Positions 1,521-59,073 of a stretch of DNA of 64,000 bases are shown here, one piece after another. Below the pieces are notes generated by a model. It had not been told where the DNA came from and did no database searches. It saw only the letters and a list, made by a program, of their open reading frames with translations. The stretch comes from Halomonas salipaludis (GTDB lineage: Bacteria > Pseudomonadota > Gammaproteobacteria > Pseudomonadales > Halomonadaceae). Within the stretch, counting starts at the first letter, position 1. Each line of letters begins with the position of its first letter. The stretch lies in assembly GCF_002286975.1 (NCBI RefSeq), contig NZ_NSKB01000005.1:124001-188000 (forward strand), written 5' to 3'. The position numbers and the translations under genes are program-made.

Positions 1521-1714
1521 GACTGATCCGGCGGCAGGCCTGCGAGGAGGCGCTGTGAACCTCTCCCTGGGCGCTACCTTGCGCCCTGCTGCGCTCTCGC
1601 ATCCTGCTCCGCTTGCAGGACCGGGGCTGGCCATCCATGGCCAGCCCGTTCGGAGCGGTGCTCCTCACCCATGGCGCAAACCTCCTCTTCGACCTGCCCC
1701 CGGCGTCCCTCGCT
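1521..1714. repeat. Palindromic intergenic repeat, copy 1 (apically extended)
   Basis: First of five related palindromic repeats in the window. Outer stem: GGCAGG (1533-1538) and GAGGAGG (1544-1550) pair with CCTCCTC (1681-1687) and CCTGCC (1693-1698). The apical hairpin (TTGCGCC...ATGGCGCAA in other copies) is here interrupted by about 85 bp. That insert carries its own palindrome, GGCTGGCCA-TCCA-TGGCCAGCC, around 1624-1646. The copy therefore looks like an elongated cruciform. It lies between two minus-strand genes, ubiE and the DUF971 gene, and fills most of the gap at 1383-1747. Confidence 0.85.
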
Positions 1715-1747
1715 AGCAGCAACTGAGGTGGCTCAGGCGCCAAGGCC

Positions 1748-2137
1748 TCAAAGCTGCTTGAACTGGATGGTCTGGGCTTCCCGGGAGGCGCCGGCCTCGT
1801 CCAGGCGGCGTAGGTAGTCGGCCCAGTTGGTGTCGTGATCGACGGCGATGGCGTAGAGGTAGTCCCAGCTGTAGAGGCCGCTGTCGTGGCCATCGTCGAA
1901 GTGCAGCTTGAGCGCGTAGTTGCCGGCCTGGGTGATGTTCTGCAGGCCGACGTCCTTCTTGCCGACCTGCAGCACGGCGGTATCGGGGCCGTGGCCGCGG
2001 ACCTCGGCAGAGGGCGAGAAGACCCGCAGGTACTCGACGCTGAGCAGGAAGCGCTGGCCGTTGGGGTACTCCAGCTCCAGCTCGCGGGCCTTCTTGTGGT
2101 AGTGCACCTTGGAGGGGATCGGGGTGTCCATGTTCAT
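1748..2137 (-). CDS. DUF971 / gamma-butyrobetaine hydroxylase-like N-terminal domain protein
   Basis: Encodes 129 residues starting MNMDTPIPSKVHYHKKARELELEY. The pattern PNGQRF..SVEYLRVFSPSAEVRGHG, followed by a GNYALKLHFDDGHDSGLYSWDYLY block, is the DUF971 domain, also found at the N terminus of gamma-butyrobetaine hydroxylases. Stand-alone copies are widespread next to hslVU in Pseudomonas-type genomes, as here. Function is not established. Roles in metal or Fe-S handling have been suggested for the domain, but nothing in this sequence proves one. A start three codons later (MDTP) is also possible. It is flanked on both sides by palindromic repeats. Confidence 0.88.
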   Translation of the reverse strand: MNMDTPIPSKVHYHKKARELELEYPNGQRFLLSVEYLRVFSPSAEVRGHGPDTAVLQVGKKDVGLQNITQAGNYALKLHFDDGHDSGLYSWDYLYAIAVDHDTNWADYLRRLDEAGASREAQTIQFKQL

Positions 2138-2219
2138 GGCTCCGGGGTTGAGGCCTTAGGAGTGCAGCTGTCGACTCTGCCCGAGCGATAGGGCCAGCGT
2201 CGAGAAGGCGCGGCATAAG

Positions 2220-2318
2220 CCGACGACAGGGCTCCGCGGAGGCGCTGTGAACCCCTCCCTGCGCTACCTACGCCATCCCTGGCGTAGAACCTCCGCTTCG
2301 ACCTGTCCTCGGCGCCGC
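2220..2318. repeat. Palindromic intergenic repeat, copy 2
   Basis: Same family as copy 1, in the 216-bp gap between hslU and the DUF971 gene. Outer stem: GACAGG (2225-2230) and GCGGAGG (2236-2242) pair with CCTCCGC (2290-2296) and CCTGTC (2302-2307). Apical hairpin: CTACGCCA (2268-2275), TCCC loop, TGGCGTAG (2280-2287). Compared with the other copies, both arms of both stems have changed together, so base pairing is preserved. Confidence 0.88.
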
Positions 2319-2353
2319 GCCGCCTGCCACTATTCTGATGCTAGCCGCTGCGG

Positions 2354-3673
2354 TTAGAGAATATACCGCGACAGGTCCTCATCCATGGCCAGTTCGCCGA
2401 GCTGCGAGTTGACATAGTCGGCGTCGATGACCAGCGGGCTGCCCAGGTCGCCGCCCTTGAACGAGGCTTCCTCGAGCAGGCGCTCCATCACCGTGTGCAG
2501 GCGCCGCGCGCCGATGTTCTCGGTGCCTTCGTTGACCTGCCAAGCGATCTCGGCGATGCGCTGGATACCGTCCTCGGTGAAGGATATCTCCAGGCCGTCG
2601 GTGGCCAGCAGCGCCTCGTACTGCTTGGTCAGCGCCGCCGAAGGTTCGGTGAGGATGCGCTGGAAGTCGTTGGGCGTCAGCGCCTCGAGCTCGACGCGGA
2701 TCGGCAGACGACCCTGCAGTTCGGGAATCAGGTCCGAGGGCTTGGAGAGGTGGAAGGCCCCTGAAGCGATGAACAGGATATGGTCGGACTTGACCATGCC
2801 GTGCTTGGTCGACACCGTCGAGCCCTCGATCAGCGGCAGCAGGTCGCGCTGTACGCCTTCGCGGGAGACTTCGCCGCCGCTCGACTGCTGGCCCTTGGTG
2901 ACCTTGTCGATCTCGTCGAGGAAGACGATGCCGTTCTGCTCCACCGCCTCGATGGCGCGGCGCTTGATCTCCTCCTCGTTGACCAGCTTGGCGGCTTCTT
3001 CGTCGCGCAGCAGCTGCCAGGCATCCTTGACCGCGACGCGCTTGGTCTCGCTCTTCTGCTTGCCCATGTTGGCGAACATGCTCTGCAGCTGGTTGGTCAT
3101 CTCCTCCATGCCCGGCGGGGTCATGATGTCGATGCCCGGCCCCTGGGGCGTGACCTGGATGTCGATCTCCTTGTCGTCGAGCTGGCCTTCGCGGAGCTTC
3201 TTGCGGAACAGCTGGCGGGTCGAACTATCGCTGCGCGGCGCTTCTTCCTGGCCACGCGGCGGCGGCAGCAGGGCATCGAGGATGCGATCCTCTGCGGCGT
3301 CCTCGGCCTTGTGGCGCACCTCTTCCTTGGCCTGCTCGCGGGTCAGCTTGATCGAGGCCTCGGTGAGATCGCGAATGATCGACTCGACGTCGCGGCCGAC
3401 ATAGCCGACCTCGGTGAACTTGGTGGCCTCGACCTTGATGAAGGGGGCGTTGGCGAGCTTGGCCAGGCGCCGGGCGATCTCGGTCTTGCCGACCCCGGTG
3501 GGGCCGATCATCAGAATATTCTTGGGCGTCACTTCACCACGCAGCGAATCGTCGAGCTGCATGCGCCGCCAGCGGTTGCGCAGGGCGATGGCCACGGCGC
3601 GCTTGGCATCCTGCTGGCCGATGATGAACTGGTCGAGGGCGTGAACGATTTCACGGGGTGTCATCTGGGTCAT
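2354..3673 (-). CDS. hslU: HslU, ATPase subunit of the HslVU (ClpQY) protease
   Basis: Encodes 439 residues. It is an AAA+ unfoldase that feeds proteins into the HslV peptidase in the cytoplasm. Visible features: the N-terminal [20 protein letters not shown] typical of HslU, Walker A GPTGVGKT at 57-64, the Walker B block FLDEIDK in the second half, an acidic/charged I-domain in between, and the conserved C-terminal tail LSRYIL, which activates HslV. The start at 3673 matches the E. coli protein (MSEMTPREIV); the longer upstream frame overlaps hslV. The HslV stop lies 10 bp upstream, so the pair is one operon. Confidence 0.98.
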
Positions 3674-3683
3674 GGGGCGGCCT

Positions 3684-4202
3684 TCAGAGCTCTTCGAGGG
3701 TGACGTTGTGGTTGGTGAACACGCAGATATCGCCGGCGATCTCGAGGGACTTCTCGGTGATCTCGCGGGCCGACAGTTCGGTGTTTTCCAGCAGTGCGCG
3801 GGCCGAAGCCAGGGCGAAGTTGCCGCCCGAGCCGATGGCGATGATGCCGCGCTCGGGCTCCACCACGTCACCGTTGCCGGTGATGATCAGCGAGGCGTCC
3901 TTGTTGGCGACGGCCAGCAGCGCTTCCAGACGGCGCAGCGCGCGGTCGGTGCGCCAGTCCTTGGCCAGCTCCACGGCGGCTTTGACCAGGTGCCCCTGGT
4001 ACTTTTCCAGCTGCGACTCGAAGCGCTCGAACAGCGTGAAGGCGTCGGCGGTGCCGCCGGCAAAGCCGGCCAGCACCTGACCGCGATACAGCCGGCGCAC
4101 CTTGCTGGCGTTGCCCTTCATCACCGTATTGCCGAGTGATACCTGGCCGTCGCCGGCCAGCGCTACCTTGCCCTCGCGGCGCACGGATACGATCGTGGTC
4201 AT
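3684..4202 (-). CDS. hslV: HslV, threonine peptidase subunit of HslVU
   Basis: Encodes 172 residues, the normal length. It forms the double-hexamer peptidase core. The catalytic nucleophile is Thr2, exposed when the initiator Met of MTTIVSVRR is removed. The [14 protein letters not shown] and [18 protein letters not shown] blocks match E. coli HslV closely, as does the Ser-Gly-Gly segment [17 protein letters not shown]. It sits directly upstream of hslU in the same operon. In many proteobacteria hslVU is heat-shock induced; I could not identify a sigma-32 promoter in the 92 bp upstream. Confidence 0.98.
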
Positions 4203-4294
4203 GTGATGCTTGCTCCCAAAAAGACGTGCAGTAGGAGATGCGGGCGCGACGCGCTGAAATCAACCGCCCGAGCGCGCCTGGCGGACGCGCTTGC

Positions 4295-4996
4295 TCAGTT
4301 CTGCAGGCGGATCATCAGCGGCTCGATACCCTGGGTCAGCATCAGGTCCTGGGCACGGTTGAGCTCGCGGTTATCGTCGTAGGGGCCGACCTGGACGCGG
4401 TGCCAGGTCTGGTTGTCGCCGGACTGCACCTCGCTGATCTGCGCCTGGAGGCCGAAGTTGCGCAGCCGGCCGGCGAGCTGTTCGGCATCGCCCGGCTCGC
4501 GGAACGACGCCGCCTGCAGCATGTAGCGGCTGTTGGCTGCGGGCTGGTTGGTCGCTTCAGCGGCGGCCTGCTCGGCCGCTGCCTCGTCGGCGGCGGTGGT
4601 ACGGGCGATCTGCTCGGCAATCGGGTCCAGCGCCTCGTCGCTGGGCGGCTCGGCGGCGGCGGTGTCCTCGCTGGGCGTGGGCGGCTGCGGCGGCACCACC
4701 ACCTCGGAGCGCGGCGCGACCACTTCGGATTCCGGCAGCAGGGTGTAGAACTCGAAGGTCGGCATGCGCGGCTCGTCGGCGCTGTCCGCTTCGCCCTCGG
4801 CGGGGCTGCTCGAGGGCGGCTTGGGCAGTACCGTGGCCAGTGGCGTGGGGGCGCTCTCCTGCACGTACTGGGCGAGGAAGAAACCGGCCACCAGGCCGGC
4901 CACGCCCCATAGCCAACCAGGCACGCCGCGGCGCTGGGCGGGGGCACGGCGGCGCGGTGCGGCGCCGCGTTTCTTGGGCGCGGGGCGGCGGGCCAT
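4295..4996 (-). CDS. SPOR-domain inner-membrane protein (FtsN-like)
   Basis: Encodes 233 residues. The basic cytoplasmic N terminus (residues 1-27) is followed by one transmembrane segment (about 28-45, WLWGVAGLVAGFFLAQYV). Then comes a long Pro/Glu/Ala-rich periplasmic linker and a C-terminal SPOR domain (about 158-233, YMLQAASFREPGDAEQLAGRL...WHRVQVGPY). SPOR domains bind glycan strands stripped of stem peptides at the septum. Topology and position between argS and hslV match the FtsN-type protein of Pseudomonas-like genomes. Whether it is the essential FtsN cannot be shown from sequence. Its ATG overlaps the argS TAA by one base (TAATG), indicating coupled translation. Confidence 0.88.
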   Translation of the reverse strand: MARRPAPKKRGAAPRRRAPAQRRGVPGWLWGVAGLVAGFFLAQYVQESAPTPLATVLPKPPSSSPAEGEADSADEPRMPTFEFYTLLPESEVVAPRSEVVVPPQPPTPSEDTAAAEPPSDEALDPIAEQIARTTAADEAAAEQAAAEATNQPAANSRYMLQAASFREPGDAEQLAGRLRNFGLQAQISEVQSGDNQTWHRVQVGPYDDNRELNRAQDLMLTQGIEPLMIRLQN

Positions 4997-6681
4997 TACA
5001 TCTCCTCGGGGGCGCTCACGCCCAACAGGTCGAGGCCGTTGCGAATCACCTGGCGGGTGGCGAGCCCCAGCGCCAGGCGGGCGTTGCGCTGGGCGTCGTC
5101 ATCGACCATGACCTTGACTGCGTTGTAGCAGGTGTGGAAATCGGCGGCCAGGTCCTGGAGGTACTGGGCGACCTGCTGCGGCTCGCGATTGCCGGCGGCG
5201 TGCTCGACGACCTCGGGGAAGCGCGCCAGGCGATTCATCAGCGCCTTCTCCTGGTCGGCCTCGAGCTGGGCCAGGCTGGCCACGGCCAGGGCGTGGTCGA
5301 AGGGCTTGCCGTCGGCCTCGGCGCGGCGGAGCACGCTGCACACCCGGGCGTGGGCATACTGCACGTAGTAGACCGGGTTGTCGTTGGACTGCGAGCGAGC
5401 CAGGTCGATGTCGAAGGTCAGCTGCGAGTCGGCGCGGCGCGCGGCCAGGAAGTAGCGGGTGGCGTCGCGGCCGACCTCGTCGATCAGGTCGCGCAGGGTG
5501 ACATAGCTGCCGGCGCGCTTGGAGAGCTTGACCTCGACCCCGGAGCGGGTGACCAGCACCATCTGGTGCAGCACGTAGTCGGGCCAGCCCTGGGGGATGC
5601 CGGTTTCCAGCGCCTGCAGCCCGGCGCGCACGCGGGTCACCGTGGAGTGGTGGTCGGCGCCCTGCTCGTTGATCACCTGGCCAAAGCCACGCTGCCACTT
5701 GTCGAAGTGGTAGGCGACGTCGGGCAGGAAGTAGGTATAGCCGCCGTCGCGCTTGCGCATTACGCGATCCTTGTCGTCACCGAAATCGGTGGTGCGCAGC
5801 CACAGGGCGCCGTCCTCTTCATAGGTATGGCCGCCGTCGATCAGCTTGGCCACGGTGGCCTCGACCTTGCCGTCGTCGTACAGCGACGACTCCAGGAAGT
5901 AGACGTCGAACTCGACACCGAAGGCCTTGAGGTCGAGATCCTGCTCGCGGCGCAGGTAGGCCACGGCGAACTCGCGAATGGCATCGAGGTCGTCGGCATC
6001 GGCCTTGGCGGTGACGTGGCGGTCATCGGCGTCGACTGTCTCGCCGGCTAGGTAGCTGGCGGCGACGTCCTCGATGTAGCCGCCGCGGTAGCCATCTTCC
6101 GGCCAGCTGGGGTCGTCGGGGCCGAGGCCCTTGGCGCGGGCCTGCACCGAGCGCGCCAGGTTGCTGATCTGGGCGCCGGCGTCGTTGTAGTAGAACTCGC
6201 GGGTGACATCGTAGCCGGTGGCCGCGAGCAGCCGGCAGATCGAGTCGCCGATCGCCGCGCCGCGGCCGTGGCCGACGTGCAGCGGCCCGGTGGGGTTGGC
6301 CGACACGAACTCGACCTGCACCTTCTGGCCCTGGCCGATCAGGCTGCGACCGAAGGTGTCGCCGGCGTCGAGCACCTGCTGTACCACCTGGGCGATGGCG
6401 TCGGTGGCGGCGAAGAAGTTGATGAAGCCGGGCCCGGCGATCTCGGTGCTGCTCACCGCTGGAGACTCGGGCAGGGCGGCAACCAGGGCTTCGGCCAGGT
6501 CGCGCGGTTTCTTGCCGGCGGGCTTGGCCAGCATCAGCGCCAGGTTGGTGGCGTAGTCGCCGTGGGCCTTGTCCTTGGTGGGGTCGACCTTGATGGTCGG
6601 CGCGACGTCGGCGGGTAGCACGCCCTGCTGCTTGAGGGCGGCGAGTGCCTCGTCGAGCAGCGCGATGATGGTCTCTTTCAT
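4996..6681 (-). CDS. argS: Arginyl-tRNA synthetase
   Basis: Encodes 561 residues (E. coli 577). This class I synthetase charges tRNA-Arg. It carries the Arg-specific N-terminal additional domain, then the HIGH-type motif in [15 protein letters not shown], the KMSKS-equivalent region around [20 protein letters not shown], and a C-terminal DALR anticodon-binding domain ending [11 protein letters not shown] chose the ATG at 6681 ([13 protein letters not shown]), which matches family starts; upstream in-frame residues read into the promoter region. It is the first gene of an argS-SPOR-hslV-hslU run. Two of its cognate tRNA-Arg(ACG) genes are elsewhere in this window. Confidence 0.97.
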
Positions 6682-6802
6682 GAGTGGTCTGGTGTCCTGT
6701 GGCGCGTGGCGTGGCAACGGCCGAAACGGCTTGGTCGCCCATTATCGGCAATTGCGGGGCGGCTTTAAACCCTGTGGGGGAAAGCAGGTGCGAACGCCAA
6801 CC

Positions 6803-9058: not shown

Positions 9059-9087
9059 TTGGCCTCCGCGGCTGGCTCTGCTAAGAT
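9059..9087 (+). promoter_or_regulatory. Candidate sigma-70 promoter of rpmE
   Basis: TTGGCC (9059-9064), a 17-bp spacer and TAAGAT (9082-9087) give a reasonable sigma-70 promoter about 150 bp before rpmE. The -35 abuts the proposed TTG start codon of the divergent priA gene. The leader between this promoter and rpmE contains a small GTGG...CCAC hairpin near 9118-9133. Confidence 0.5.
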
Positions 9088-9235
9088 ACGTGCCCTTCGG
9101 GCTCGGGGCGCGACCTCGTGGCTTCGAAACCACCCGGTCTGTCGTTGCGCTGAATGGCATGACAACTGTATGACAACCGTATGCGGTGCCTGGCAAATGA
9201 TCAGGTGGCGGCATACAGCATCATGAGGCTTCAAG

Positions 9236-9451
9236 ATGAAACAAGGTATCCACCCCGATTACAAGAAGGTCAGCGCTACCTGCAGCTGCGGCGCTACCTT
9301 CGAGGTCGGCTCGACTTCGGGTCACGACTTCAACCTGGACGTCTGCTCACAGTGCCATCCGTTCTATACCGGTAAGCAGAAGCAGGCGACCACCGGTGGC
9401 CGCGTCGAGCGCTTCAACAAGCGTTTCGGTGCCGCCGTCAAGCGCGGCTGA
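9236..9451 (+). CDS. rpmE: Ribosomal protein bL31 (zinc-binding type)
   Basis: Encodes 71 residues, the usual size. Large-subunit protein bL31 helps bridge the two ribosomal subunits. The four zinc ligands are Cys16, Cys18, Cys37 and Cys40, so this is the zinc-containing (C+) form, the one usually replaced by a cysteine-less paralogue under zinc starvation. The [11 protein letters not shown] block matches E. coli L31. It is a single-gene unit, divergent from priA and followed by a strong intrinsic terminator. Confidence 0.98.
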
Positions 9452-9471
9452 TAGCTCGCTGTCGGTTCGTG

Positions 9472-9498
9472 AAAAACCCGCCGCCCGGCGGGTTTTTT
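9472..9498 (+). terminator. Rho-independent terminator of rpmE
   Basis: Inverted repeat AAAACCCGCC / GGCGGGTTTT with a short CGCC-type loop, ending in a run of six T. It lies 20 bp after the rpmE stop codon. Confidence 0.93.
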
Positions 9499-9701
9499 GT
9501 GGCTGCTCGCCTGGCCTGTGGCAATAAGCTCGACGTTATGCCTGAGGGGTTGACCATAAGTTGCGCTAAATATCTGGAAATAGCTTCAAACATCCGATTA
9601 AAAGCCTTGAATGACAGCAACTTGGCTCAAGTTGTGGGGCTGAGCGTTTTTCTATATTCTGATTTGACTCTCTCGTTGAAGACGACTGGACAACTACGCA
9701 T

Positions 9702-10973
<1,272 letters not shown>

Positions 10974-25839: not shown

Positions 25840-27291
<1,452 letters not shown>

Positions 27292-27343: not shown

Positions 27344-27453
27344 CGGCTGATCTGGCGGCAGGCTCTCGCGAAGACGCTGTAAACCCGTCCATGGGCGCTC
27401 CATTCTTCATCCCTGAAGAATGAGCTTCGCTCATGCCTGCCCCCAGCGCCGCT
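27344..27453. repeat. Palindromic intergenic repeat, copy 3
   Basis: Same family as copies 1, 2, 4 and 5, in the same plus-strand orientation, but between plus-strand genes gltD and pyrG. Outer stem: GGCAGGC (27357-27363) and GCGAAG (27368-27373) pair with CTTCGC (27425-27430) and GCCTGCC (27435-27441). Apical hairpin: CATTCTTCA (27401-27409), TCCC, TGAAGAATG (27414-27422). The apical stem sequence is unrelated to the other copies but pairs perfectly over 9 bp. Confidence 0.87.
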
Positions 27454-27782: not shown

Positions 27783-30332
<2,550 letters not shown>

Positions 30333-32916: not shown

Positions 32917-33030
32917 GGGCTGATCCGCAGGCAGGCCTACGAGGGGGCGCTGTAAACCCATCCCTGGGCGCTACCTTGCGCCATCCATGGCGCAAACCCC
33001 CTCTTCGACCTGCCTCCGGCGCCCCTCAGC
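32917..33030. repeat. Palindromic intergenic repeat, copy 4 (canonical)
   Basis: Cleanest copy of the family, in the 333-bp gap between mutS and fdxA, both on the minus strand. Outer stem: GGCAGG (32930-32935) and GAGGGGG (32941-32947) pair with CCCCCTC (32997-33003) and CCTGCC (33009-33014). Two inner hairpins: CCCA-TCCC-TGGG (32957-32968) and TTGCGCCA-TCCA-TGGCGCAA (32976-32995). Read on the minus strand, the loops are GGGA and TGGA. The rest of the gap holds only the fdxA upstream region. Confidence 0.9.
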
Positions 33031-33063: not shown

Positions 33064-35640
33064 CTACAGCGCCTCTCGCCAGCGGTAGAGCAGCTCCAGC
33101 GCCTGACGCGGGCTCAGCTCGTCGAGGGCCAGGCCGCCGAGCTCGTCGATCAGCGGATGCGGCGCGCTGGCGAACAGATCGTTTTGCTGGGGTGCCGGTT
33201 CGCCGCCGGCGGCAAGCGAGGGACGGCTGCCCTGGTCGACCTCGTGCTGCTCGAGCTGGGCGAGTTTCTCGCGTGCCCGGGCGATCACGCCCTGGGGTAC
33301 GCCGGCGAGCTGTGCGACCTGCAGGCCGTAGCTCTGGCTTGCCGGGCCCTCCTCGACGCGGTGCATGAAGACGATGCCCTCGCGGTGCTCGGCGGCGGTG
33401 AGGTGGACGTTGGCCACGCCGGGTGCTTGCTCGCTCAGGGCGGTCATCTCGAAGTAGTGGGTGGCGAACAGCGTGAAGGCCCGCGAGCGGGTCAGGTGCT
33501 CGGCGCTGGCCCAGGCCAGCGACAAGCCATCGAAGGTGCTGGTACCGCGGCCGATCTCGTCCATCAAGACCAGGCTGTGGTCGCTGGCGTTGTGCAGGAT
33601 ATTGGCGGTTTCGGTCATCTCGACCATGAAGGTCGAGCGCCCGCCGGCCAGATCGTCGGAGGAGCCGATGCGGGTAAAGATACGATCAACCGGGCCGATC
33701 TCGGCATCGTCGGCGGGCACGAAGCAGCCGGTGTGGGCGAGCAGCACGATCAGCGCCGCCTGGCGCATGTAGGTCGATTTGCCGCCCATGTTGGGGCCGG
33801 TGATCACCAGCATGCGCCGCGCGTCGTCCATCTCCAGGTCGTTGGGCACGAAGGGGTGCTCGCTGACGTTCTCGACCACCGGGTGGCGGCCGCCGCGAAT
33901 GCGGATGCCGGGCGCGTCGGCGAGCCGCGGGCGCACCAGGCTCAGCGCCTCGGCACGTTCGGCAAAGGTGGCCAGCACATCGAGGCTGGCGAGGGCCTGG
34001 GCGCTGGCCTGCAGCGGCCCCAGCTCGGCGTTGAGGGCATCGAGCAGGCTCTCGTAGAGCAGCTTCTCGCGGGCCAGGGCGCGGGACTTGGCGGACAGCG
34101 CCTTGTCCTCGAACTCCTTGAGCTCGGGAATGATGAAGCGCTCGGCGTTCTTCAGGGTCTGGCGACGAATGTAGTCCGCCGGCGCGTCGCGGGCCTGGCC
34201 GCGGGGGATCTCGATGTAGTAGCCGTGGACGCGGTTATAGCCGACCTTGAGGTTGGCCAGCCCGGTGCGCTCGCGCTCCCGGCGCTCCAGCTCGATCAGG
34301 TAGTCGCCGGCGTGCTCGGCCAGGCCGCGGTATTCGTCGAGCTCGTCGTCGAAACCGTCGGCGATCACGCCGCCGTCGCGAATCACCACCGGTGGGTTGT
34401 CGATGAGTGCCCGGCTCAGGGTGTAGGCGAGCTCCGGGTAGGGGCGGATATGCCGCCTGAGGTCGTCCAGGGCGCTGCCCTCGGCGTAGCCGCGCAGCGC
34501 GTCCTGTAGTTCGGGCAGGGCGTTGAGGGCATCGCGTAGCCGCGCCAGGTCGCGGGGGCGGGCGCTGCGCAGTGCCACCCGCGCCAGGATGCGCTCGACG
34601 TCGCCGATCGCCTTGAGCTCCTCGCGCAGCGCCAGGTAACCCTCCTGGTCGAGCAGCAGGGTCACCGCGGTCTGGCGTGCGCCGATCAGCGCGCGGTCGC
34701 GCAGCGGGCGGTTGAGCCAGCGCTTGAGCAGGCGAGCGCCCATCGCCGTGGCGGTGGTGTCGAGTACGCTGGCCAGGGTGTTGTCGCCGCTGCCGCCGAG
34801 GTTGGTATCGATCTCCAGGTTGCGACGGCTGGCGGCGTCGATGACCACCGCGTCGTCGCGGTTCTCGACGCCGATGGCGGTGACGTGGGGCAGCCGCGAG
34901 CGCTGGGTATCGCGGGCATAGTCGACCAGCACCCCGGCGGCGATGATCGCCGCCTCCAGGTGGGCACAGCCGAAGCCACGCAAGTCCTGGACCTGGAACT
35001 GGTCGCATAGCAGGCGCAGCGCGCTGTCGTGGTCGAACAGCCAGTCGCTCTGGCGCTTGAGACTGGCCCGCCCGTGGAGCGTCGGCGGCAGCTCGAGGCC
35101 GTCGGCGACGAGCAGCTCGGCCGGTGCCAGGCGCTGCACTTCGGCGAGCATCTCGGCGTCGTCGTCGACCTCGAGCACGCTGAAGCGGCCGCTGGAGAGC
35201 TCCAGCCAGGCCAGCCCCCAGCGCCCGCCCTGGTTGTGCAGGGCCAGCAGCAGATTGTCGCGCTGGGCGTCGAGCAGCGCCTCGTCGTGCAGGGTGCCGG
35301 GGGTGACGATGCGCACCACCCGGCGCTCCACTGGCCCCTTGGCCAGCGCCGGGTCGCCGATCTGCTCGCAGATCGCCACCGACTCGCCGGCCTGGACCAG
35401 GCGCGCCAGGTAGCCCTCGGCACTATGATAGGGTACCCCGGCCATGGGGATCGGCTTGCCCGCCGACTGGCCGCGCTGGGTGAGGGTGATGTCGAGCAGC
35501 TTGGCGGCGCGCTTGGCGTCGTCGAAGAACAGCTCATAGAAGTCGCCCATGCGATAGAACAACAGCACGTCGGGATGCTCGCGCTTGATCTTCAGGAACT
35601 GCTGCATCATCGGGGTATGCGAGGGGCTGGCCTGGCTCAT
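33064..35640 (-). CDS. mutS: DNA mismatch repair protein MutS
   Basis: Encodes 858 residues (E. coli 853). It recognises mismatches and small loops and starts methyl-directed or nick-directed repair. The N-terminal mismatch-binding Phe-x-Glu is visible in the segment [17 protein letters not shown]. The ATPase domain has Walker [14 protein letters not shown] near residue 615, followed by a Walker B/ABC signature region ([32 protein letters not shown]). The C-terminal tail ends [17 protein letters not shown], the tetramerisation region. It is a single gene, divergent from pncC-recA. Confidence 0.98.
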
Positions 35641-42325: not shown

Positions 42326-42523
42326 ATGCTCATCCTAACCCGCCGCGTCGGCGAGACGCTGATGATCGGTGATGACATCACCGTCACAGTGCTCGGCGTC
42401 AAGGGTAACCAAGTTCGCATCGGGGTCAACGCTCCCAAGGATGTGGCCGTGCACCGTGAAGAGATCTATCAGCGTATCCAGCGCGAGAAGTCGGATGGAA
42501 ACGATGGTGAGTCTCAGGCCTGA
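42326..42523 (+). CDS. csrA: CsrA/RsmA post-transcriptional regulator
   Basis: Encodes 65 residues. This dimeric RNA-binding protein recognises GGA in hairpin loops, usually at ribosome-binding sites. [51 protein letters not shown] contains the conserved strand-1 (L4, R6/R7) and strand-5 (VHREE, Arg near 44) RNA contacts. The start is the ATG at 42326 behind AAGGAG; the upstream in-frame extension is not family-like. The leader itself contains AAGGAGAT at the ribosome-binding site, compatible with autoregulation. It is functionally tied to the GGA-rich RNA at 32.1-32.3 kb. Confidence 0.98.
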
Positions 42524-51020: not shown

Positions 51021-51080
51021 CTTGCTTCTCCGGTTGTGGTCGAGGAGGGCCCGGCAGAGGCCGAGCCCGGAACTGCGGGG

Positions 51081-52688: not shown

Positions 52689-52697
52689 AGGAGCTCC

Positions 52698-54221
52698 TTA
52701 GTCGGCACCGGCGTCGCTGCGCTGGGCCTGTTGTCGATTGCGTTGAATCTTGCGGTCCTGATAGAGCGAGAAGATCACCGAGGCCAGCGCCAGCGCCAGG
52801 AACAGCGCCGAGAGTGGTCGGGTCAGGAAGGTCAGCCAGCTGTCGTTGAGCTCCAGGGCGCGGAACAGCTGGCGCTCGAGGTTGTTGCCCAGCACCACGC
52901 CGAGGATCAGCGGCGTCAGCGGCACCTCGGCCTTCCACAGCAGATAGCCGATCACCCCGAACACGAACAGCACCCAGATATCGAACAGGTTGTTGTTCAG
53001 CGCATAGGAGCCGATGGCGCACAGCATCAGCACCACCGGCACCAGGACCTCCTGGGGGATCAGCGAGATCTTGGCGAACCAGCGCACCAGCAGCAGCTGG
53101 CAGAGCACCATGATCACCGCGCCGATCAGCAGGCTGGCGTAGATGGCGCCGACCAGCACCGGGTTCTGCTCGAACATCAGGGGACCGGGGGTGATGCCGT
53201 GCAGGATCAGCACGCCCATCATGATCGCCATCGGCAGGTCGCCGGGGATACCCAGCGCCAGGGTCGGCACGAAGGCGCCGCCGGCCACCGCACTGTTGGA
53301 GGCCTCGGAGGCGACGATGCCGCTGGGCGTGCCGGTGCCGAAGGTCTCCGGCTGGCGCGAGAACTTCTTGGCCTGGTCGTAGCTGATGAAGTTGGCCACG
53401 GTGCCGCCGGTACCGGGCAGCGCCCCGACCAGGCTGCCGATCAGCGACGAACGCAGGGTGTTGAGCTTCTGGCCGGCCATGTCCTTGAGGATGCGGCGAT
53501 AAGGGATCGAGACATTGGTGTCGACGCCCTTGACCTCGCCCTGGTCGTCGCGCAGCTTCTCGAGGTTGCCCATCAGCTGCGAGAAGGCAAAGATGCCGAT
53601 CATCACCGGCAGGATCTCGAAGCCCGAGCCCAGCGCTGGCAGGCCGAAGTCGAAGCGCAGGTTGCTGTTGCGGTCGTAGCCCACGGTGGTGATCAGCAGC
53701 CCCAGGGCGGCGGCCAGCAGCCCCTTGAGCAGTGCGCCGTTGGAGAGCCCGGCGACCAGCGTCAGGGCGAAGACGATCAGCGCGGTGATCTCCCAGGGGC
53801 GGAAGTTCATGCTGAAGCTGGCGATCAGCGGGCCGAAGAACACCAGCACCGCGACGCTGATCAGGGTGCCGATGAACGAGGCCGCCACGCCGATACCCAG
53901 GGCGCGGCCCGGCTCGCCCCTCTGGGCCATAGGGTAGCCGTCGTAGACGGTAGTGATCGATGACGGCGTGCCGGGGATGCCCAGCATCACGCCGGAGACG
54001 ATGCCGCCGGAGTAGCCGCCGACGAACACCCCGACCATCAGCGACACGCCGCTGACCGGATCCATGGCAAAGGTGAAGGGAAACACCACCAGGATCGCCA
54101 TGGTCACGGTGAAGCCGGGGATGCTGCCACCGATGATGCCAAACAGCACGCCGATCACGATCAGCGCCAGTACCGATGGGCTGCTGACCTGGCCAAGGGC
54201 CTGTAGAAAGAAATCCGCCAT
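52698..54221 (-). CDS. tctA: TTT transporter large membrane subunit TctA (system 2)
   Basis: Encodes 507 residues with about 11-12 transmembrane segments. Conserved TctA repeats: GVLFGIIGGSIPGFTVTMAILVVFPFTF and GALPGTGGTVANFISYDQAKKFSRQPETFGTGTPSGIVASEASNSAVAGGAFVP. It lies 9 bp upstream of ggt on the minus strand, so the two are co-transcribed. It is only moderately similar to system 1, so the two look like independently acquired or long-diverged paralogues. Confidence 0.94.
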   Translation of the reverse strand: MADFFLQALGQVSSPSVLALIVIGVLFGIIGGSIPGFTVTMAILVVFPFTFAMDPVSGVSLMVGVFVGGYSGGIVSGVMLGIPGTPSSITTVYDGYPMAQRGEPGRALGIGVAASFIGTLISVAVLVFFGPLIASFSMNFRPWEITALIVFALTLVAGLSNGALLKGLLAAALGLLITTVGYDRNSNLRFDFGLPALGSGFEILPVMIGIFAFSQLMGNLEKLRDDQGEVKGVDTNVSIPYRRILKDMAGQKLNTLRSSLIGSLVGALPGTGGTVANFISYDQAKKFSRQPETFGTGTPSGIVASEASNSAVAGGAFVPTLALGIPGDLPMAIMMGVLILHGITPGPLMFEQNPVLVGAIYASLLIGAVIMVLCQLLLVRWFAKISLIPQEVLVPVVLMLCAIGSYALNNNLFDIWVLFVFGVIGYLLWKAEVPLTPLILGVVLGNNLERQLFRALELNDSWLTFLTRPLSALFLALALASVIFSLYQDRKIQRNRQQAQRSDAGAD

Positions 54222-54237
54222 GTGTTACTCCCAGGCG

Positions 54238-54708
54238 TTAGGGCAGCCAGACATTGAGGCCGAAGCGGAAGATCACGAACACCAGCGGCACCAGGGTGCA
54301 GCTGACGGCGAGATTGATGATCCACTTGCGGCGGGAATTGATCCCCAGCAGCAGTCCCAGTGAGCTCACCAGGAAGGCCAGGGTGGCGACGATATAGCCG
54401 AGCACCGGCAGCAGCGCGGCGTAGAGGCCGAACAGCGCGAACAGCGAGAAGACCGTGCGGTTGTGGGTCAGCCACTCGGTGAAGCGGCGTCGCGGGGTGG
54501 CTGTCGTGCCGGGACCGGCAATCAGCGAGCGCGCCAGGATCAGCAACGACAGCAGGCCGGTTACCACCAGCAGGATGCGTGGGAACAGCGCCGAGCCGTA
54601 GGGCTGCCAGGAGGTAGGGGGCCGGATATTGCCCGACTCGACCCACATCACAACAACGATCAACAGCAGGACCAGCGCCAGGGCGCGGTCCTTGGTAAGC
54701 GTCAACAT
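54238..54708 (-). CDS. tctB: TTT transporter small membrane subunit TctB (system 2)
   Basis: Encodes 156 residues with four predicted transmembrane helices and little else. PPTSWQPYGSALFPRILLVVTGLLSLLI is the TctB signature. I chose the ATG at 54708 (MLTLTKDRALAL), with GGGAGATATCTCG upstream; a ten-residue longer start is possible. It lies 16 bp before tctA of system 2. Confidence 0.88.
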   Translation of the reverse strand: MLTLTKDRALALVLLLIVVVMWVESGNIRPPTSWQPYGSALFPRILLVVTGLLSLLILARSLIAGPGTTATPRRRFTEWLTHNRTVFSLFALFGLYAALLPVLGYIVATLAFLVSSLGLLLGINSRRKWIINLAVSCTLVPLVFVIFRFGLNVWLP

Positions 54709-54768
54709 CGAGATATCTCCCGACCCTCGTCCCGGCAAAGCGGGGCGAGGATCTCACTCAATTCTGGC

Positions 54769-55749
54769 TCAGTTCTGAAAGTCGATGTTCTCGGCGGCCG
54801 CCGACAGCGCCGCCTCGTTCTCGTCGAGGAACTCGAGGTAGTCATCGCCGGCCAGGAAGCGCACCACCGAGCCGAACTCGTTCTCGATGCGGCTCCTAAC
54901 CTCCTCGTTCTCGAGCGCCTGGCCGTAGGCCTCGGCGATGGTGTCCTGGATCTCCTGCGGCGTGCCCTCGGGCGCAAAGATGCCGCGGCTGGTGGAGTGG
55001 TCCATCGCGATGCCCTGTTCGCGCAGGGTCGCTACGTTGGGCATGCTGTCGAGGCGCTCGGGGTGGGCGATTCCCAGCGGGCGGAAGGTGCCCTCCTCGA
55101 AGAACGAGCCGCCGGACGGCAGGTTGAACATGGCGAAGTCGATCTCCTCGGCGATCAGCGCCGAGACCTGCTCGCCAGTATCCGGATAGCCCACCAGGCG
55201 TACGTCGGCCATGTCGATGCCGGCCTCCTGGAAGAACTGCGCCCAGAAGAAGTGGTCGGTGGAGCTGGGGATCATGCTGAAGCGCACCTGGCCCGGGTTC
55301 TCGCGCACGTAGTCGGCGATCTCGTCGGCGCTCTGCACCTCATGGTTGGCGTGTGCGGTGGGGATATTGATGGTCTGGGTCAGCAGCGCGATCGGCTCGA
55401 AGGCATCGTATGAGTAGTCGACGGTGCCGGCCAGCTTGGACAGCGCGATGGTGTCGTGGCTGCCGAGCAGGGTGTAGCCGTCCGGGTCGGCATCCTTGAC
55501 GTTGCGCGAGCCCAGCGTGGCGCCGGCGCCGGCCATATTGACCGGCACGATCGACTCGCCCAGGTACTGCTCGGCCTCCTGGGAGATCAGCCGGAAGATG
55601 ATGTCGGTGGCGCCGCCCGGCCCATAGGGGATGATCAGCCGGATGTCCTGCTCGGGATAGTCGGCCTGGGCGGTGCCGGTAAAGGCCAGGCTCGAGGCCA
55701 GGCCGATGGCGGCGATGGCGGTGGTGAGACGTAGCTTCGAACGCGTCAT
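54769..55749 (-). CDS. tctC: TTT periplasmic substrate-binding protein TctC (system 2)
   Basis: Encodes 326 residues. Signal peptide MTRSKLRLTTAIAAIGLASSLAFTGTAQA, then DIRLIIPYGPGGATDIIFRLISQEAEQYLGESIVPVNMAGAGATLG, the Bug/TctC binding fold. The start at 55749 was chosen for the complete signal peptide; the upstream open frame belongs to the region between genes. The 110-bp gap upstream, to the ChrA genes, contains a CGCCGG-GCCTG-CCGGCG hairpin (55789-55805) that could attenuate read-through. Confidence 0.92.
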   Translation of the reverse strand: MTRSKLRLTTAIAAIGLASSLAFTGTAQADYPEQDIRLIIPYGPGGATDIIFRLISQEAEQYLGESIVPVNMAGAGATLGSRNVKDADPDGYTLLGSHDTIALSKLAGTVDYSYDAFEPIALLTQTINIPTAHANHEVQSADEIADYVRENPGQVRFSMIPSSTDHFFWAQFFQEAGIDMADVRLVGYPDTGEQVSALIAEEIDFAMFNLPSGGSFFEEGTFRPLGIAHPERLDSMPNVATLREQGIAMDHSTSRGIFAPEGTPQEIQDTIAEAYGQALENEEVRSRIENEFGSVVRFLAGDDYLEFLDENEAALSAAAENIDFQN

Positions 55750-55859
55750 GTTGAACACCTTTTGTATTGTGGTGGTGTGGCTGTGATTCGCCGGGCCTGC
55801 CGGCGGCGAGTGAGCGCGTGATCCCGTTGTCGGGTTATTGTGTCGTTGCGGCGGGCGTC

Positions 55860-56390
55860 TCAGCCCAGGAACACTCCTCCATAAACCAGTGCGCCGAGAA
55901 CCACGAAGGCCGGATGGGCGCGAAACCGCAGCAGCGCCACGGCAGCCACGGCGCCGATCAACAGGGTGTGGAGCAGCCCGGCGCTGTCGATGCCCTCGCT
56001 GAAGAAGCTCCAGGTCAGCCAGGCCATCATCAGCGCGATCACCGGGCGCACCCACTGGCTCATGCGCTTGACCCGCGGCGACTCGCGATGGCGATAGAGC
56101 AGCCCCAAGGCGCCGAGCATCAGCAGCAGTGACGGCACCACGGTGGCGAACACCGCGACGATGGCGCCACCCACGCCGGCCACGTCGTAGCCCACATAGC
56201 CGGCCATCTTGGTGGCGATGGGGCTGGGCAGGGCGTTGCCCAGGGCCAGGGTCTCGGCGAACTCCTGGGCGCCCATCCAGCCGTAGCGGCCGACCACTTC
56301 GGCCTCGATCAGCGGAATGATCGCCGGCCCGCCGCCGTAGCCGATGATGTTGGGAATGAAGAAGGCCAGGAACAGCTCCCAATAGATCAT
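55860..56390 (-). CDS. chrA: Short ChrA-family transporter, second half of a pair
   Basis: Encodes 176 residues, about half the size of classical ChrA (about 400). It corresponds to one CHR domain with five to six transmembrane helices. The motif FFIPNIIGYGGGPAIIPLIEAEVV parallels the FGGGPAMIPL of its partner. Short CHR proteins work as heterodimers with opposite topology. The start overlaps the partner's stop by four bases. The family is named for chromate efflux, but physiological substrates may differ. The cluster context (TTT transporters, Ggt-like enzyme) suggests another anion is possible. Confidence 0.88.
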   Translation of the reverse strand: MIYWELFLAFFIPNIIGYGGGPAIIPLIEAEVVGRYGWMGAQEFAETLALGNALPSPIATKMAGYVGYDVAGVGGAIVAVFATVVPSLLLMLGALGLLYRHRESPRVKRMSQWVRPVIALMMAWLTWSFFSEGIDSAGLLHTLLIGAVAAVALLRFRAHPAFVVLGALVYGGVFLG

Positions 56391-56968
56391 GGGGTGGCCT
56401 CCCGCTTGGGCGTCGGGCGCAGCAGCGCCGCCGCCAGGATGCCGCCGATCACCCAGCCGGGATGCACGCCCAGCCAATAGATCAGCACGCCGGCCACCGC
56501 CGCCATGGCCAGGCTGACCAGCCAGCCCAGCGCCAGCTGCGACTTGTTGAGGAAGTCCCAGGCCAGTTGGCCCATCATCACCATCACCACCGGCACCACG
56601 CCCTGGCCCATGCCTTGGATCCAGGCCACGTCGCGGTAGCGGCTGAATACCCCGAGCAGGGCGATCATGGCGACGATGGTGGGCAGGATCACCGCCAGCA
56701 CAGCGTTGATGCAGCCGGCCACGCCGCCGACGCGGTAGCCGATATAGCCGGGCATCTTGGTGGCGATGGGACCGGGCAGGGTATTGGCGATGGCCAGGAT
56801 ATCGCTGAACTCCTCGTCATCGAGCCAGGCGTGGCGCTTGACCACCTCCTGCTGGACGAGGGGAATCATGGCGGGGCCGCCGCCGAAGCCGAGCAGGCCG
56901 ATACGCAGGAAGGCCATGAACAGGTCGCGCTGGCGGGCTGTGGCCGGGCGGGCTACCGATTTATCCAT
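56387..56968 (-). CDS. chrA: Short ChrA-family transporter, first half of a pair
   Basis: Encodes 193 residues with an N-terminal hydrophilic lead, then AFLRIGLLGFGGGPAMIPLVQQEVVKRHAWLDDEEFSDILAIANTLPGPIATKMPGYIGYRVGG, the diagnostic CHR-domain signature. It is the first gene of the minus-strand cluster, divergent from the GntR regulator. It pairs with the gene overlapping its 3' end. Bacillus ywrA/ywrB are the known short-CHR pair, and there too a Ggt-like gene (ywrD) is nearby. Confidence 0.88.
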   Translation of the reverse strand: MDKSVARPATARQRDLFMAFLRIGLLGFGGGPAMIPLVQQEVVKRHAWLDDEEFSDILAIANTLPGPIATKMPGYIGYRVGGVAGCINAVLAVILPTIVAMIALLGVFSRYRDVAWIQGMGQGVVPVVMVMMGQLAWDFLNKSQLALGWLVSLAMAAVAGVLIYWLGVHPGWVIGGILAAALLRPTPKREATP

Positions 56969-57001
56969 ATACGCTCTCCCGCCAAGCCGGATGATGGATT
57001 T

Positions 57002-57066
57002 CTGTAGTAGAATCGTGGCATTCCATATCGTCTTGTTGTTAAAAAATCGATTATCTGTACTAGAAT
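57002..57066. promoter_or_regulatory. Direct-repeat candidate operator in the chrA-gntR intergenic region
   Basis: CTGTAGTAGAAT (57002-57013) and CTGTACTAGAAT (57055-57066) differ at one base and lie 53 bp apart, about five helical turns. Both contain a TAGAAT that could be a -10 hexamer. They sit in the AT-rich divergent promoter region between the first ChrA gene and the GntR gene, so they are good candidates for regulator binding sites. Confidence 0.5.
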
Positions 57067-57147
57067 ATAGTTTGCTGGCAAAACACGCGTCAAGCAGGGC
57101 AACGACAAGTGACAGATAAAAGCGGCCGGTAACCGCCAGGAGATGCC

Positions 57148-57807
57148 ATGGGTGTTCTACATCGCAAGGAGAGTGCTACCACCGCCAGCCGGGTGTTCGA
57201 CGCCATGCGTCACGACCTGGTCAATGGCCGTTTTGCCGCCGGCGAGAAGGTGGCCATCAATGGCCTCAAGGAGCAGTATCAGGTGGGCTTGAGCCCGCTG
57301 CGCGAAGCGCTCAACCGCCTCGCCGCCTACGGGCTGCTGGTACAGGAGAATCAGCGCGGCTTTCGGGTACCACGGCTGGATCGCCGCGAGCTCGATGACG
57401 TCGCCGGCATGCGCCGCGAGCTGGAAGGCATGGCCCTCGAGCGGGCGATCCTCAACGGTGATGCCGAGTGGGAGTCGGAGTTGCTGGCCGCGGCGCACCG
57501 CCTCAAGCGAGCGGATCTATCGCCGACCAAGGTCGACGAGTGGGAGCAGCTGCACACGCGCTTTCACAGCACTCTGGTGGCCCCCTGCGGCTCGGTGTGG
57601 CTACTGCGTTTCATCGACCAGCTGCACGACCAGTTCGATCGCTATCGGCGCATGGCGCCGGGCGTGCCGGAGGTGCGCAAGGTCCTCGATGCCCAGCACG
57701 GCGAGCTGGTCGAACTGGCGCTGGAGCGCGACGTCAAGGCGGCGCGGGCGCTGCTCGAGGACCATATCGAGCGCTCCTACGAAGTGGCCCTGGGCAGCTG
57801 CAAATAG
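57148..57807 (+). CDS. GntR-family transcriptional regulator with FCD domain
   Basis: Encodes 219 residues. The N-terminal winged helix-turn-helix (about 12-75, LVNGRFAAGEKVAINGLKEQYQVGLSPLREALNRLAAYGLLVQENQRGFRV) is typical of GntR. The C-terminal FCD helical bundle has likely metal/ligand residues in LHTRFHSTLV, AQHGELVELA and LLEDHIERSYE. FCD regulators usually respond to organic acids. It is divergent from the ChrA-TTT-Ggt cluster and is most likely its local regulator. The gene ends 1 bp before the convergent yigZ. Confidence 0.92.
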   Translation: MGVLHRKESATTASRVFDAMRHDLVNGRFAAGEKVAINGLKEQYQVGLSPLREALNRLAAYGLLVQENQRGFRVPRLDRRELDDVAGMRRELEGMALERAILNGDAEWESELLAAAHRLKRADLSPTKVDEWEQLHTRFHSTLVAPCGSVWLLRFIDQLHDQFDRYRRMAPGVPEVRKVLDAQHGELVELALERDVKAARALLEDHIERSYEVALGSCK

Positions 57808-57808
57808 T

Positions 57809-58429
57809 TCAGGCGGTGACGCTGAGCCGGCCCTTGAGCCGTGAGGCCAGCTCATCCAGGTGAGCGCTCTCCTCGCCGGCGGGCCAGCCGACCTGCAGGG
57901 TCACGCCGTGGGCGTGGTAGTCGGCGCTATGTACCGGAACCTGGCGCTCGGCGAGCCAGCTGCGGGCCTCGGCCTCGCTGGCGAAGTCGAGGCCGAGGGC
58001 GAGCGTACGGCGGGGGATGAAGTCGCGGCGGGGCAACTGCTCGAGGCCCTGGGCCACGGCCTGGGAGTAGGCGCGAGCCAGGCCACCGGTGCCCAGCTTG
58101 GTGCCGCCGAAATAGCGCGTGACCACGCAGCCCACCTGGCCGATGCCGGCACCATCCAGCACTTGGAACATCGGCCGTCCGGCGGTGCCGCCGGGCTCAC
58201 CGTCGTCGGAGAAACCGATCGCCTGCTGCTCGCCGGGCGGGCCTGCAATGAAGGCGCTGCAGTGGTGGCTGGCGCCGGGATGTGCAGTACGCGCGGCGGC
58301 CAGCAGCGACTCGAAGGCCTGGACGGTGGGTGCATGACATAGCCAGGCAATGAAGCGGCTCTTCTCGACTTCCAGCTCACTCTCGTGCCACAGGCCCTCC
58401 TCGAGGTCGGGGATCGGATAGCCCATCAC
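57809..58429 (-). CDS. yigZ: YigZ/IMPACT family protein
   Basis: Encodes 206 residues. The N-terminal UPF0029/IMPACT domain has EKSRFIAWLCHAPTVQAFESLLAAAR...ASHHCSAFI, FSDDGEPGGTAGRPM and VVTRYFGGTKLGTGGLARAYSQAV. A smaller C-terminal ferredoxin-like domain follows. The family is linked to translation control in eukaryotes; the bacterial role is not defined. The start overlaps the stop of the S24 gene by four bases, so the two are co-transcribed and yigZ may be SOS-controlled here. Confidence 0.92.
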   Translation of the reverse strand: MMGYPIPDLEEGLWHESELEVEKSRFIAWLCHAPTVQAFESLLAAARTAHPGASHHCSAFIAGPPGEQQAIGFSDDGEPGGTAGRPMFQVLDGAGIGQVGCVVTRYFGGTKLGTGGLARAYSQAVAQGLEQLPRRDFIPRRTLALGLDFASEAEARSWLAERQVPVHSADYHAHGVTLQVGWPAGEESAHLDELASRLKGRLSVTA

Positions 58430-58905
58430 ATCAGCTGAGTCGACTGACGCATCACGCCCATCACCATGCCCAGCACCTTGATGTCGTCGTTCTTGAGGAA
58501 GATTGGCGCCATGCTCTCGTTGGCAGGCTGCAGGCGTACCCCGGCCTTCTCGATATAGAGCTTTTTCAGGGTGACCTCCTGGTCATTGATCATGACCACC
58601 GCCGTCTCGCCGTTCTCGGCGCTCTCCTGGCGTTCGATGATGATCACGTCGCCGTCGAAGATATTGCAGTCGATCATCGAGTCGCCGCACACCCGCAGGG
58701 CGTAGGTGTTGCGGCGCACCATGCTGGTCGGAACGTAGACGCTGGCGGTGTCGGTGCAGGCCTCGATGGGCATGCCCGCCGCCACCTTGCCGAGCAGCGG
58801 GACCTCGACCAGCTCGCCGAGTTCGCTTTCGTCGAGGGCCTGCCAGGCCTCGGCCATGGGCAGGTTGGGCAGGCGATGCAAATAGTGCGGTGCAGACTGA
58901 AGCAT
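58426..58905 (-). CDS. LexA/UmuD-like S24 protein without DNA-binding domain
   Basis: Encodes 159 residues. The C-terminal S24 peptidase fold is complete: cleavage site Ala43-Gly44 in GKVAAGMP, catalytic Ser76 in CGDSMID, and Lys114 in EVTLKKL. The Ser-Lys spacing matches LexA. The N-terminal helix-turn-helix of LexA is absent and only about 35 other residues precede the domain. It is therefore neither a full LexA nor a standard UmuD, and no umuC follows. GGAGGGA gives a good ribosome-binding site. A LexA box about 210 bp upstream indicates SOS control, with repeat copy 5 in between. It is followed by yigZ. Confidence 0.88.
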   Translation of the reverse strand: MLQSAPHYLHRLPNLPMAEAWQALDESELGELVEVPLLGKVAAGMPIEACTDTASVYVPTSMVRRNTYALRVCGDSMIDCNIFDGDVIIIERQESAENGETAVVMINDQEVTLKKLYIEKAGVRLQPANESMAPIFLKNDDIKVLGMVMGVMRQSTQLM

Positions 58906-58961
58906 GGTCTTTCTCCCTCCGGGACGGGGTCAGGACTATCGCAGATAGCGGTACCGCTCGG

Positions 58962-59073
58962 AACTGATTCGTCGGCAGGCCTGTGAGGAGACGCTGTAAA
59001 CCCATCCCTGGGCGCTACTTGCGCCATCCATGGCGCAAACCTCCTCCACGGCCTGCCGCCAACATCCCTCGCT
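58962..59073. repeat. Palindromic intergenic repeat, copy 5
   Basis: Same family, lying in the probable 5' leader of the S24 gene. Outer stem: GGCAGGCC (58974-58981) and GAGGAG (58985-58990) pair with CTCCTC (59041-59046) and GGCCTGCC (59050-59057). Inner hairpins: CCCA-TCCC-TGGG (59001-59012) and TTGCGCCA-TCCA-TGGCGCAA (59019-59038). It accounts for most of the 397-bp gap between the S24 gene and ccmA. Confidence 0.9.

Follow-up and report, generated by a model that had tools for sequence, protein, structure and literature searches.

What does a dispersed palindromic repeat conserve when most of its sequence differs from copy to copy, and what could such a repeat do? The question is raised by a 64,000-nt stretch of the Halomonas salipaludis genome (contig NZ_NSKB01000005.1, positions 124,001 to 188,000), referred to here as the window. 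Five copies of a hairpin-forming repeat lie in it, at 1521–1714 (copy a), 2220–2318 (copy b), 27344–27453 (copy c), 32917–33030 (copy d), and 58962–59073 (copy e). The initial annotation of the window gave them lower stems GAGGAGG, GCGGAGG, GCGAAG, GAGGGGG, and GAGGAG, and apical stems TTGCGCCA, CTACGCCA, or CATTCTTCA; all of these can be read directly in the DNA, each with its complement. The motif CGCTGTRAAC occurs five times in the 64 kb, once per copy and always on the plus strand (the strand as printed, whose complement is the minus strand). The existence of the five-copy hairpin family is secure. As a kind, the element is a dispersed palindromic repeat with unusual, testable features: a two-hairpin tip is conserved, and long arms beneath it vary in matched pairs. 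The explanation we favor from these sequence patterns, with somewhat less than even confidence, is an RNA carrying a double site for the regulator CsrA.

Read 5′ to 3′ on the printed strand, the element consists of an arm, one base (usually A), a core with hairpin H1, a linker, hairpin H2, and the complementary arm. The core, CGCYGTRAA-NN-CATCCMTG-NN-SGCT, is a 25-base pattern that was sought in the genome of the window (G000; other genomes are G-numbered, loci are L-numbered, and copies from named genome contigs are called named copies) with up to two mismatches tolerated. The tip measures ~73 nt and the whole unit ~110–170 nt. In G000 the arms contain, outward from the tip, the lower stem described above, GGCAGG/CCTGCC, and a GGGGC/GCCCC-type pair, and these outer pairs covary too. 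H2 falls into discrete classes. Of the 65 core rows (two of them a single copy seen in overlapping loci), 45 have TTGCGCCA, CTACGCCA, CTTTTTCC, CTTTTGCCA, CATTTTTCA, CATTCTTCA, CGACGCCA, or other stems, every class with its exact complement; the remaining 20 have a longer insert inside H2. When the minus strand of copies b–e is folded as RNA, z = −4.8 to −6.2 relative to dinucleotide shuffles.

Do the arms change together? The initial annotation had said so from five copies, and the claim holds in an alignment of 41 short forms (25 of the 65 core rows were set aside, comprising 20 long forms, a repeated short row, and the odd short rows L019, L024, L055, and L056; copy b of the window was added). 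In this alignment 149 cells are altered on both sides, compared with 42.2 in shuffles. Similarly, 94.4% of cells are paired (83.8% in shuffles), 19 pairs are changed on both sides (11.8), and covariation is 0.321 (0.134). None of 500 shuffles reached the observed value on these four measures; a fifth measure, “further pair types,” was not above shuffles (386/500). When the partner was slid by 1–3 columns, paired cells fell to 38–57% and covariation to 0.06–0.13. Arm pairing was also compared with 300 mispaired draws for each of 124 copies, 120 on contigs of named genomes and 4 on viral ones, with an inverted repeat allowed anywhere within 120 nt to the left and 220 nt to the right; most start 1 nt from the core. 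The outer inverted repeat is above the maximum of the draws in 104 of the 124 copies (median 40 versus 15). Neither outcome that the initial annotation had named as a refutation was seen: arm changes are correlated genome-wide, and most copies elsewhere have paired arms as well.

The arms are mostly private to their loci. Outside a Halomonas subfamily they differ locus by locus, with parts in common within G051, G140, and G305, and of 82 arms left by a stricter filter, with lengths peaking at 28–31, 6 share a 15-mer with another. In the genus designated g43, which is probably Marinobacter (the tip of copy L147 from Marinobacter azerbaijanicus matches several g43 loci over 73 nt at 89–92%), BLAST matches between different loci typically span query positions 478–550 alone, which is the tip and not the arms. 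Loci of g43 judged orthologous by eye from common flanks show how the arms change. At locus Y (nine genomes), 12 of 28 arm pairs are changed on both sides and two pairs show all four Watson–Crick types; at locus X (eight rows, seven distinct), 10 of 26 arm pairs are changed on both sides; at both loci, the pairs of H1 and H2 are invariant. The arms therefore evolve in place through matched substitutions, and insertion creating an inverted target duplication is unsupported. The earlier statement that the fold is kept rather than the sequence is thus right for the arms, genome-wide, at orthologous loci, and in other genera, and wrong for the tip, where the sequence is preserved along with the fold. 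Composite inverted repeats of 82–98 nt surround the core in L193 and L213, with a common outer CGTTTTCAATGAGGCCAGCAGCCTG and inner arms in common with L114.

Which strand is constrained? An A·C mismatch on one strand is a G·T mismatch on the other, and equal numbers are expected without polarity. For arms scoring at least 28 and lying no more than 3 nt from the core, with identical arms taken once, the printed-strand ratio of A·C to G·T is 119:23 in 106 named copies (p = 8e-17), 21:2 in 27 g43 copies, 23:8 in 23 order- or class-level copies, and 3:1 in 8 copies from Halomonadaceae. Copy by copy, A·C exceeds G·T in 60 named copies, falls below it in 10, and ties in 36. An excess of A·C on the printed strand is an excess of G·U on its complement, and therefore it is the pairing of the minus strand that is kept. 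The constrained strand is thus the complement of the one described in the initial annotation, and selection for an RNA on the printed strand, which we first favored, was reversed by these counts. When the sets are pooled and split by the direction of the neighboring genes, the ratios are 74:16 (++), 46:9 (−−), 37:4 (convergent), and 17:3 (divergent). Transcription-driven mutational asymmetry is disfavored because the bias is alike in the ++, −−, and convergent contexts. The same three counts bear on an account without function, in which the arms stay complementary through mutation only, by way of hairpin-templated copying (quasipalindrome correction). Joint change of both arms would follow from such copying, as would the whole-arm difference at one orthologous locus (X_L318 versus X_L306), but it predicts no context-independent preference for A·C over G·T and does not explain a tip conserved between distant genera; we regard it as very doubtful. 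More generally, the A·C/G·T asymmetry is a simple means to tell the constrained strand of a genomic hairpin.

What would the constrained strand present? On the minus strand, most hairpins of the tip have the form C[ANGGAN]G, with the loop in brackets. The H1 loop is fixed by the search patterns and hence is no independent evidence; H2 was left free by the scan pattern. Over 127 named H2 hairpins, the frequencies are C.87, A.89, N, G.92, G.87, A.89, N, and G.88; the consensus is CANGGANG, 72 distinct H2 16-mers occur, and in window copies b–e both minus-strand hairpins carry CANGGANG. Of 152 named H2 hairpins, 136 have GGA in the loop (100 with the exact C[ANGGAN]G), as do 28 of 29 in g43 loci. 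The distance between the two GGA motifs is 20 nt in 90 of 116 measurable cases and 19–21 nt in 112. A GGA in a hairpin loop, in particular an ANGGAN hexaloop, is the described target of CsrA/RsmA, with RUACARGGAUGU as the consensus from systematic evolution of ligands by exponential enrichment (SELEX), and a CsrA dimer bridges sites 10–63 nt apart, best above 18 (PMC7652899). The tip has both features, a GGA in an ANGGAN hexaloop and two sites within 10–63 nt, and an H1 variant reading GUACAGGGAUGU on the minus strand fits the SELEX consensus.

The small RNAs (sRNAs) CsrB/CsrC and RsmX/Y/Z are single genes with many sites. Their hairpins resemble the tip in the GGA within an ANGGAN hexaloop, the free stem sequence, and the paired sites within bridging distance (PMC7652899). 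The element differs: it is a dispersed repeat whose long stem bears two sites, it reaches 126 exact-pattern copies in one genome (G305), and its binding is predicted. As we see it, the working form would be the minus strand folded on its own, most likely as RNA, and a single CsrA/RsmA dimer could hold both neighboring loops, ~20 nt apart. The tip would sit on a long stem of free sequence and conserved pairing, allowing the arms to drift by matched changes. When this strand is transcribed, as 3′ untranslated or intercistronic RNA in Halomonas, it might recruit CsrA locally, or titrate it through tens of copies. Anatomy, covariation, polarity, loop consensus, spacing, and the distribution over the sets covered are direct observations, whereas RNA in place of single-stranded DNA, CsrA binding, a regulatory effect, and the manner in which copies spread are inferences. 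All 36 genomes tested have csrA, and 7 of them lack an element match, so the co-occurrence proves nothing. The element-bearing genome G051 has nine csrA-family matches, compared with one to three in the other 35. A known RNA family was also considered and rejected: at the gathering score, Rfam matched tRNA and RNase P alone in the window and 17 loci, and not the element.

Several observations weigh against a CsrA-bound RNA, the 7 genomes with csrA and no element match among them. The mismatch asymmetry is equally strong where the GGA strand is antisense (the ++ class above), which a plain mRNA model leaves unexplained, and it is weak in the Halomonas alignment (28:12 cells, or 12:10 counting each pair and type once). 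Of 16 copies in G140, 14 have a GGA strand that is antisense to both neighbors and 2 a sense one, and named tandem copies show no orientation bias (39 versus 44). The loop lacks GGA in 16 of the 152 named H2 hairpins, and the script found no H2 in 18 of 170 named copies. The share of H2 loops with GGA is lower in order- or class-level loci (25 of 31, from 45 copies) and in Halomonadaceae (66 of 82), in part owing to the long forms in these counts. In 20 of the 124 copies no arm is better than the control; L019, L024, and L055 have, by eye, a broken lower stem; and in X_L310 the arm is largely replaced and poorly paired. Conservation extends to the junction bases CGCYGTRAA and SGCT, for which CsrA should have no use. 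Finally, the element at g43 locus V points one way in L305, L309, and L310 and the opposite way in L306–L308.

Could the folded strand be DNA rather than RNA? Integron attC sites and the ends of elements of the IS200/IS605 type are folded single strands used as substrates. The polarity of the element ignores neighboring transcription, and so the main rival to an RNA is a folded single-stranded DNA hairpin, in which the minus-strand tip would be a substrate for a recombinase or transposase and arm pairing would aid extrusion or processing. The conserved junction bases, the inversion at locus V, and the Halomonas subfamily with common arms, which suggests copying, fit such a substrate. Nevertheless, no partner enzyme was found (on Y1 transposases, see below), and the arms covary where the element occupies one and the same locus in different genomes, something that mobility by itself would not call for. 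Furthermore, exact matches in G002 are about even by strand in each half of the contig (by eye, and assuming that position 1 is near the origin). On this evidence, a DNA substrate is rather unlikely. In attC, it is the bottom strand that folds, on a variable, covarying stem, with conserved boxes at the base and a variable tip. The element is like attC in its folded bottom strand and covarying variable stem, and unlike it in that here the tip is conserved and the base varies.

How are copies placed relative to genes? Genes were called with a crude codon-score script; Pfam supported the called strand in 9 of 10 tested calls, and one neighbor of copy a was miscalled. Among 66 copies in G000, the GGA strand is sense in 38 and antisense in 6 of those in tandem context (37 versus 5 without duplicates and the window); the rest are 9 convergent, 9 divergent, 3 without a flank, and 1 inside a gene call. 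The gene on the GGA-strand side points into the element in 46 of 59 cases. Tandem copies of G002 have the GGA strand sense in 13 and antisense in 4, a count not independent of G000 insofar as some loci may be orthologous. Pfam-supported neighbors include genes for polyphosphate kinase, gyrase B, ZipA, an RNB/S1 exonuclease, a UvrD-type helicase, and an M24 peptidase. Named copies favor convergent spacers (36, versus 13 divergent; 71 versus 95 among all spacers ≥30 nt of these loci), and repetitive extragenic palindromic (REP) sequences show the same convergent-over-divergent placement (PMC3733652). This placement, together with very stable folds (z to −11.5), would suit a hairpin resembling REPs or bacterial interspersed mosaic elements (BIMEs) that stabilizes mRNA 3′ ends or shapes the chromosome without a specific link to CsrA. 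Such a hairpin is, in our estimation, unlikely: it leaves unexplained the ANGGAN loops, their spacing, and the strand polarity, and no T-tract adjoins either arm. Indeed, a T-tract follows an arm in 0 of 169 copies on either strand (background, 7 of 491), and the element is therefore not a classical intrinsic terminator.

How widespread is the repeat? The genome of the window has 62 core places (32 forward, 30 reverse), compared with 0 for a control read backwards. A covariance model, R1, built from the 41 short forms gives 107 matches there at E ≤0.01, a count resting on 150 scored of 4160 first-look candidates. R1 matches 26 of 58 genomes: 5 of 5 in the genus, 16 of 32 others in the family, and 5 of 21 others in the order, with weaker scores in order-level genomes outside the family. 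The exact pattern is found in 12 of 274 genomes of the class, with the 126 copies of G305 in one of them, so the spread is patchy. A scan of named bacterial and archaeal genomes gave at least 120 stretches with the element, 80 of them listed. Among the matches listed are Rheinheimera, Microbulbifer, Shewanella, Stenotrophomonas, Xanthomonas, Marinobacter, Alteromonas, Zobellella, Methylotuvimicrobium, and Sodalis, and the named organisms among them are presumably all gammaproteobacteria; one metagenome-assembled genome is labeled Proteobacteria alone. The family is thus not confined to Halomonas. Carriage by phages or plasmids was rejected: with copy d as the query, phage records gave no match and one Halomonas megaplasmid record matched (7 places). 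The core pattern is also present in three viral-contig stretches (L242, L243, and L244). Cores in opposite orientation ~190–250 bp apart occur in L154, L186, L195, and L197, at G046:C12:65309/65514, and in G136 (C43 and C71), as if they were two elements or two ends of something.

What would follow from this distribution? One tentative possibility is that many gammaproteobacterial lineages carry tens to more than 100 copies of a double CsrA/RsmA docking repeat, amounting to genome-wide, repeat-encoded CsrA titration or mRNA tagging. If so, a repeat family would join the network of a global regulator, CsrA availability would depend on repeat number, and repetitive DNA would be tied to post-transcriptional control in a way open to testing. 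Such a layer of repeats is easily overlooked because, outside the tip, pairing alone and not sequence is conserved. Even without CsrA, dozens of loci per genome, together with their orthologs, offer natural replicates for measuring the upkeep of palindrome pairing. No account of the hairpin family appeared in titles and abstract openings, for part of the matches only, on Halomonas or Marinobacter repeats, on CsrA with repeats or transposable elements, on dispersed CsrA sites, on REPs and their transposases, on compensatory intergenic repeats, or on the core strings; the terms looked for in the text of PMC4066749 gave no match.

Is there a dedicated transposase? The initial annotation had suggested looking for a REP-associated tyrosine transposase (RAYT) or another Y1 transposase. 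The only Y1 transposase match of the window's genome, at L059:1429–1893 on the minus strand, has no core in its locus, and 20 further Y1 loci have no convincing core, three loose matches with 3 mismatches being read as chance. ORFs near the L059 match repeat the peptide CRSDFSRD, and a separate REP family is suggested as the partner of this transposase. In favor of a REP family mobilized by a cognate RAYT are the dispersed intergenic palindromes, a Y1 match in 24 of 29 element-bearing genomes, and a GTAG or GGAG 5′ of H1 on the minus strand in some Halomonas copies. The 5 genomes without a Y1 match (at E ≤0.001; one of them, G136, is 81% complete) speak against it; G002 and G004, among those without a Y1 match, have at least 61 and 56 model matches, respectively; some Y1 loci, moreover, carry GTAG palindromes of another kind (L409, L412, and L416). 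A cognate RAYT is therefore extremely improbable. GTAG-tagged REPs and BIMEs with RAYTs are likewise dispersed intergenic palindromes, mostly 3′ of genes and recognized on one strand (PMC8266576, PMC3686654; see also PMC2817692); REPs are described as 20–50 nt long, with a conserved tetranucleotide, and found around RAYT genes (PMC8266576, PMC3686654). Here, in contrast, the unit is longer, the arms differ by locus, the 21 Y1 loci have no convincing core, and no constant GTAG/GGAG tag was found: by reading of the minus strand, Halomonas-type copies have the tag and other genera mostly have GAGC there.

Two other kinds of repeat come close. The CGTC-tagged REP dimers described, for example, from H. 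neapolitanus also place two short hairpins atop a longer palindrome and have no dedicated transposase, and they differ in the tag, the start of the stem (AT), the tail (CCA), and a palindrome that fits a common consensus (PMC3733652), unlike the mostly locus-specific arms here; Halomonas and Marinobacter do not occur in the text of that paper, figures aside. Prokaryotic miniature inverted-repeat transposable elements are similarly short and non-autonomous, with inverted ends and stem-loop transcripts (PMC10969869). For the present element, no parent insertion sequence was found, and the outer arms differ per locus outside some subfamilies. A second tip family (~GGGAAAAAYAACTCGCTGCGCTCAGACATYTTTTTCCC) sits on GGGGTGGGGTACC-type arms in g43, at L278, L282, L283, L286, L289, L291, and L299, and fills, in these other genomes, the spacer next to the gene that flanks L082 on the left. 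As judged by eye, its orientation is reversed in L299; in L288 and L290, arms of this type lack the tip.

The copies in the window, all assigned to the minus strand, illustrate this variety. Copy a is a long form with GAGGAGG/CCTCCTC as stem P2, the H1 core at 1551–1575, and an apical stem, TTGCGCC/GGCGCAA, whose halves are separated by an insert at ~1586–1669 that adds an extra hairpin inside the apical loop; copy a lies between Pfam-supported ORFs at 10–1413 and 1748–2137, both on the minus strand. Its counterpart at the orthologous locus in G002, L086, is a short form without the extra hairpin, and hence the insert has been gained or lost. Copy b, a short form, lies between that second ORF, a GBBH-like_N (DUF971-like) gene, and an AAA_2 ATPase gene at 2354–3871 (minus), which we read as HslU-like. 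Copy c, of the CATTCTTCA class, lies between a Fer4_20/Pyr_redox_2 (GltD-like) gene at 25873–27291 and a CTP synthase gene at 27804–29465, both on the plus strand. Its site, the one Halomonas locus followed in detail, has an element of a different class in G001–G003 and none in G004, where no clean junction is seen. Every stem differs at once, a pattern that replacement or independent arrival would explain as well as a long series of paired changes would. Copies d and e are short forms with the TTGCGCCA apical stem. Copy d is 3′ of mutS (33064–35640, minus), and copy e neighbors a Peptidase_S24 (LexA/UmuD-like) gene at 58426–58905 (minus), with an uncertain gene on the opposite side. The csrA gene (PF02599) of the proposed partner is itself in the window, at 42326–42481 on the plus strand (contig positions 166326–166481), and adjoins none of the five copies.

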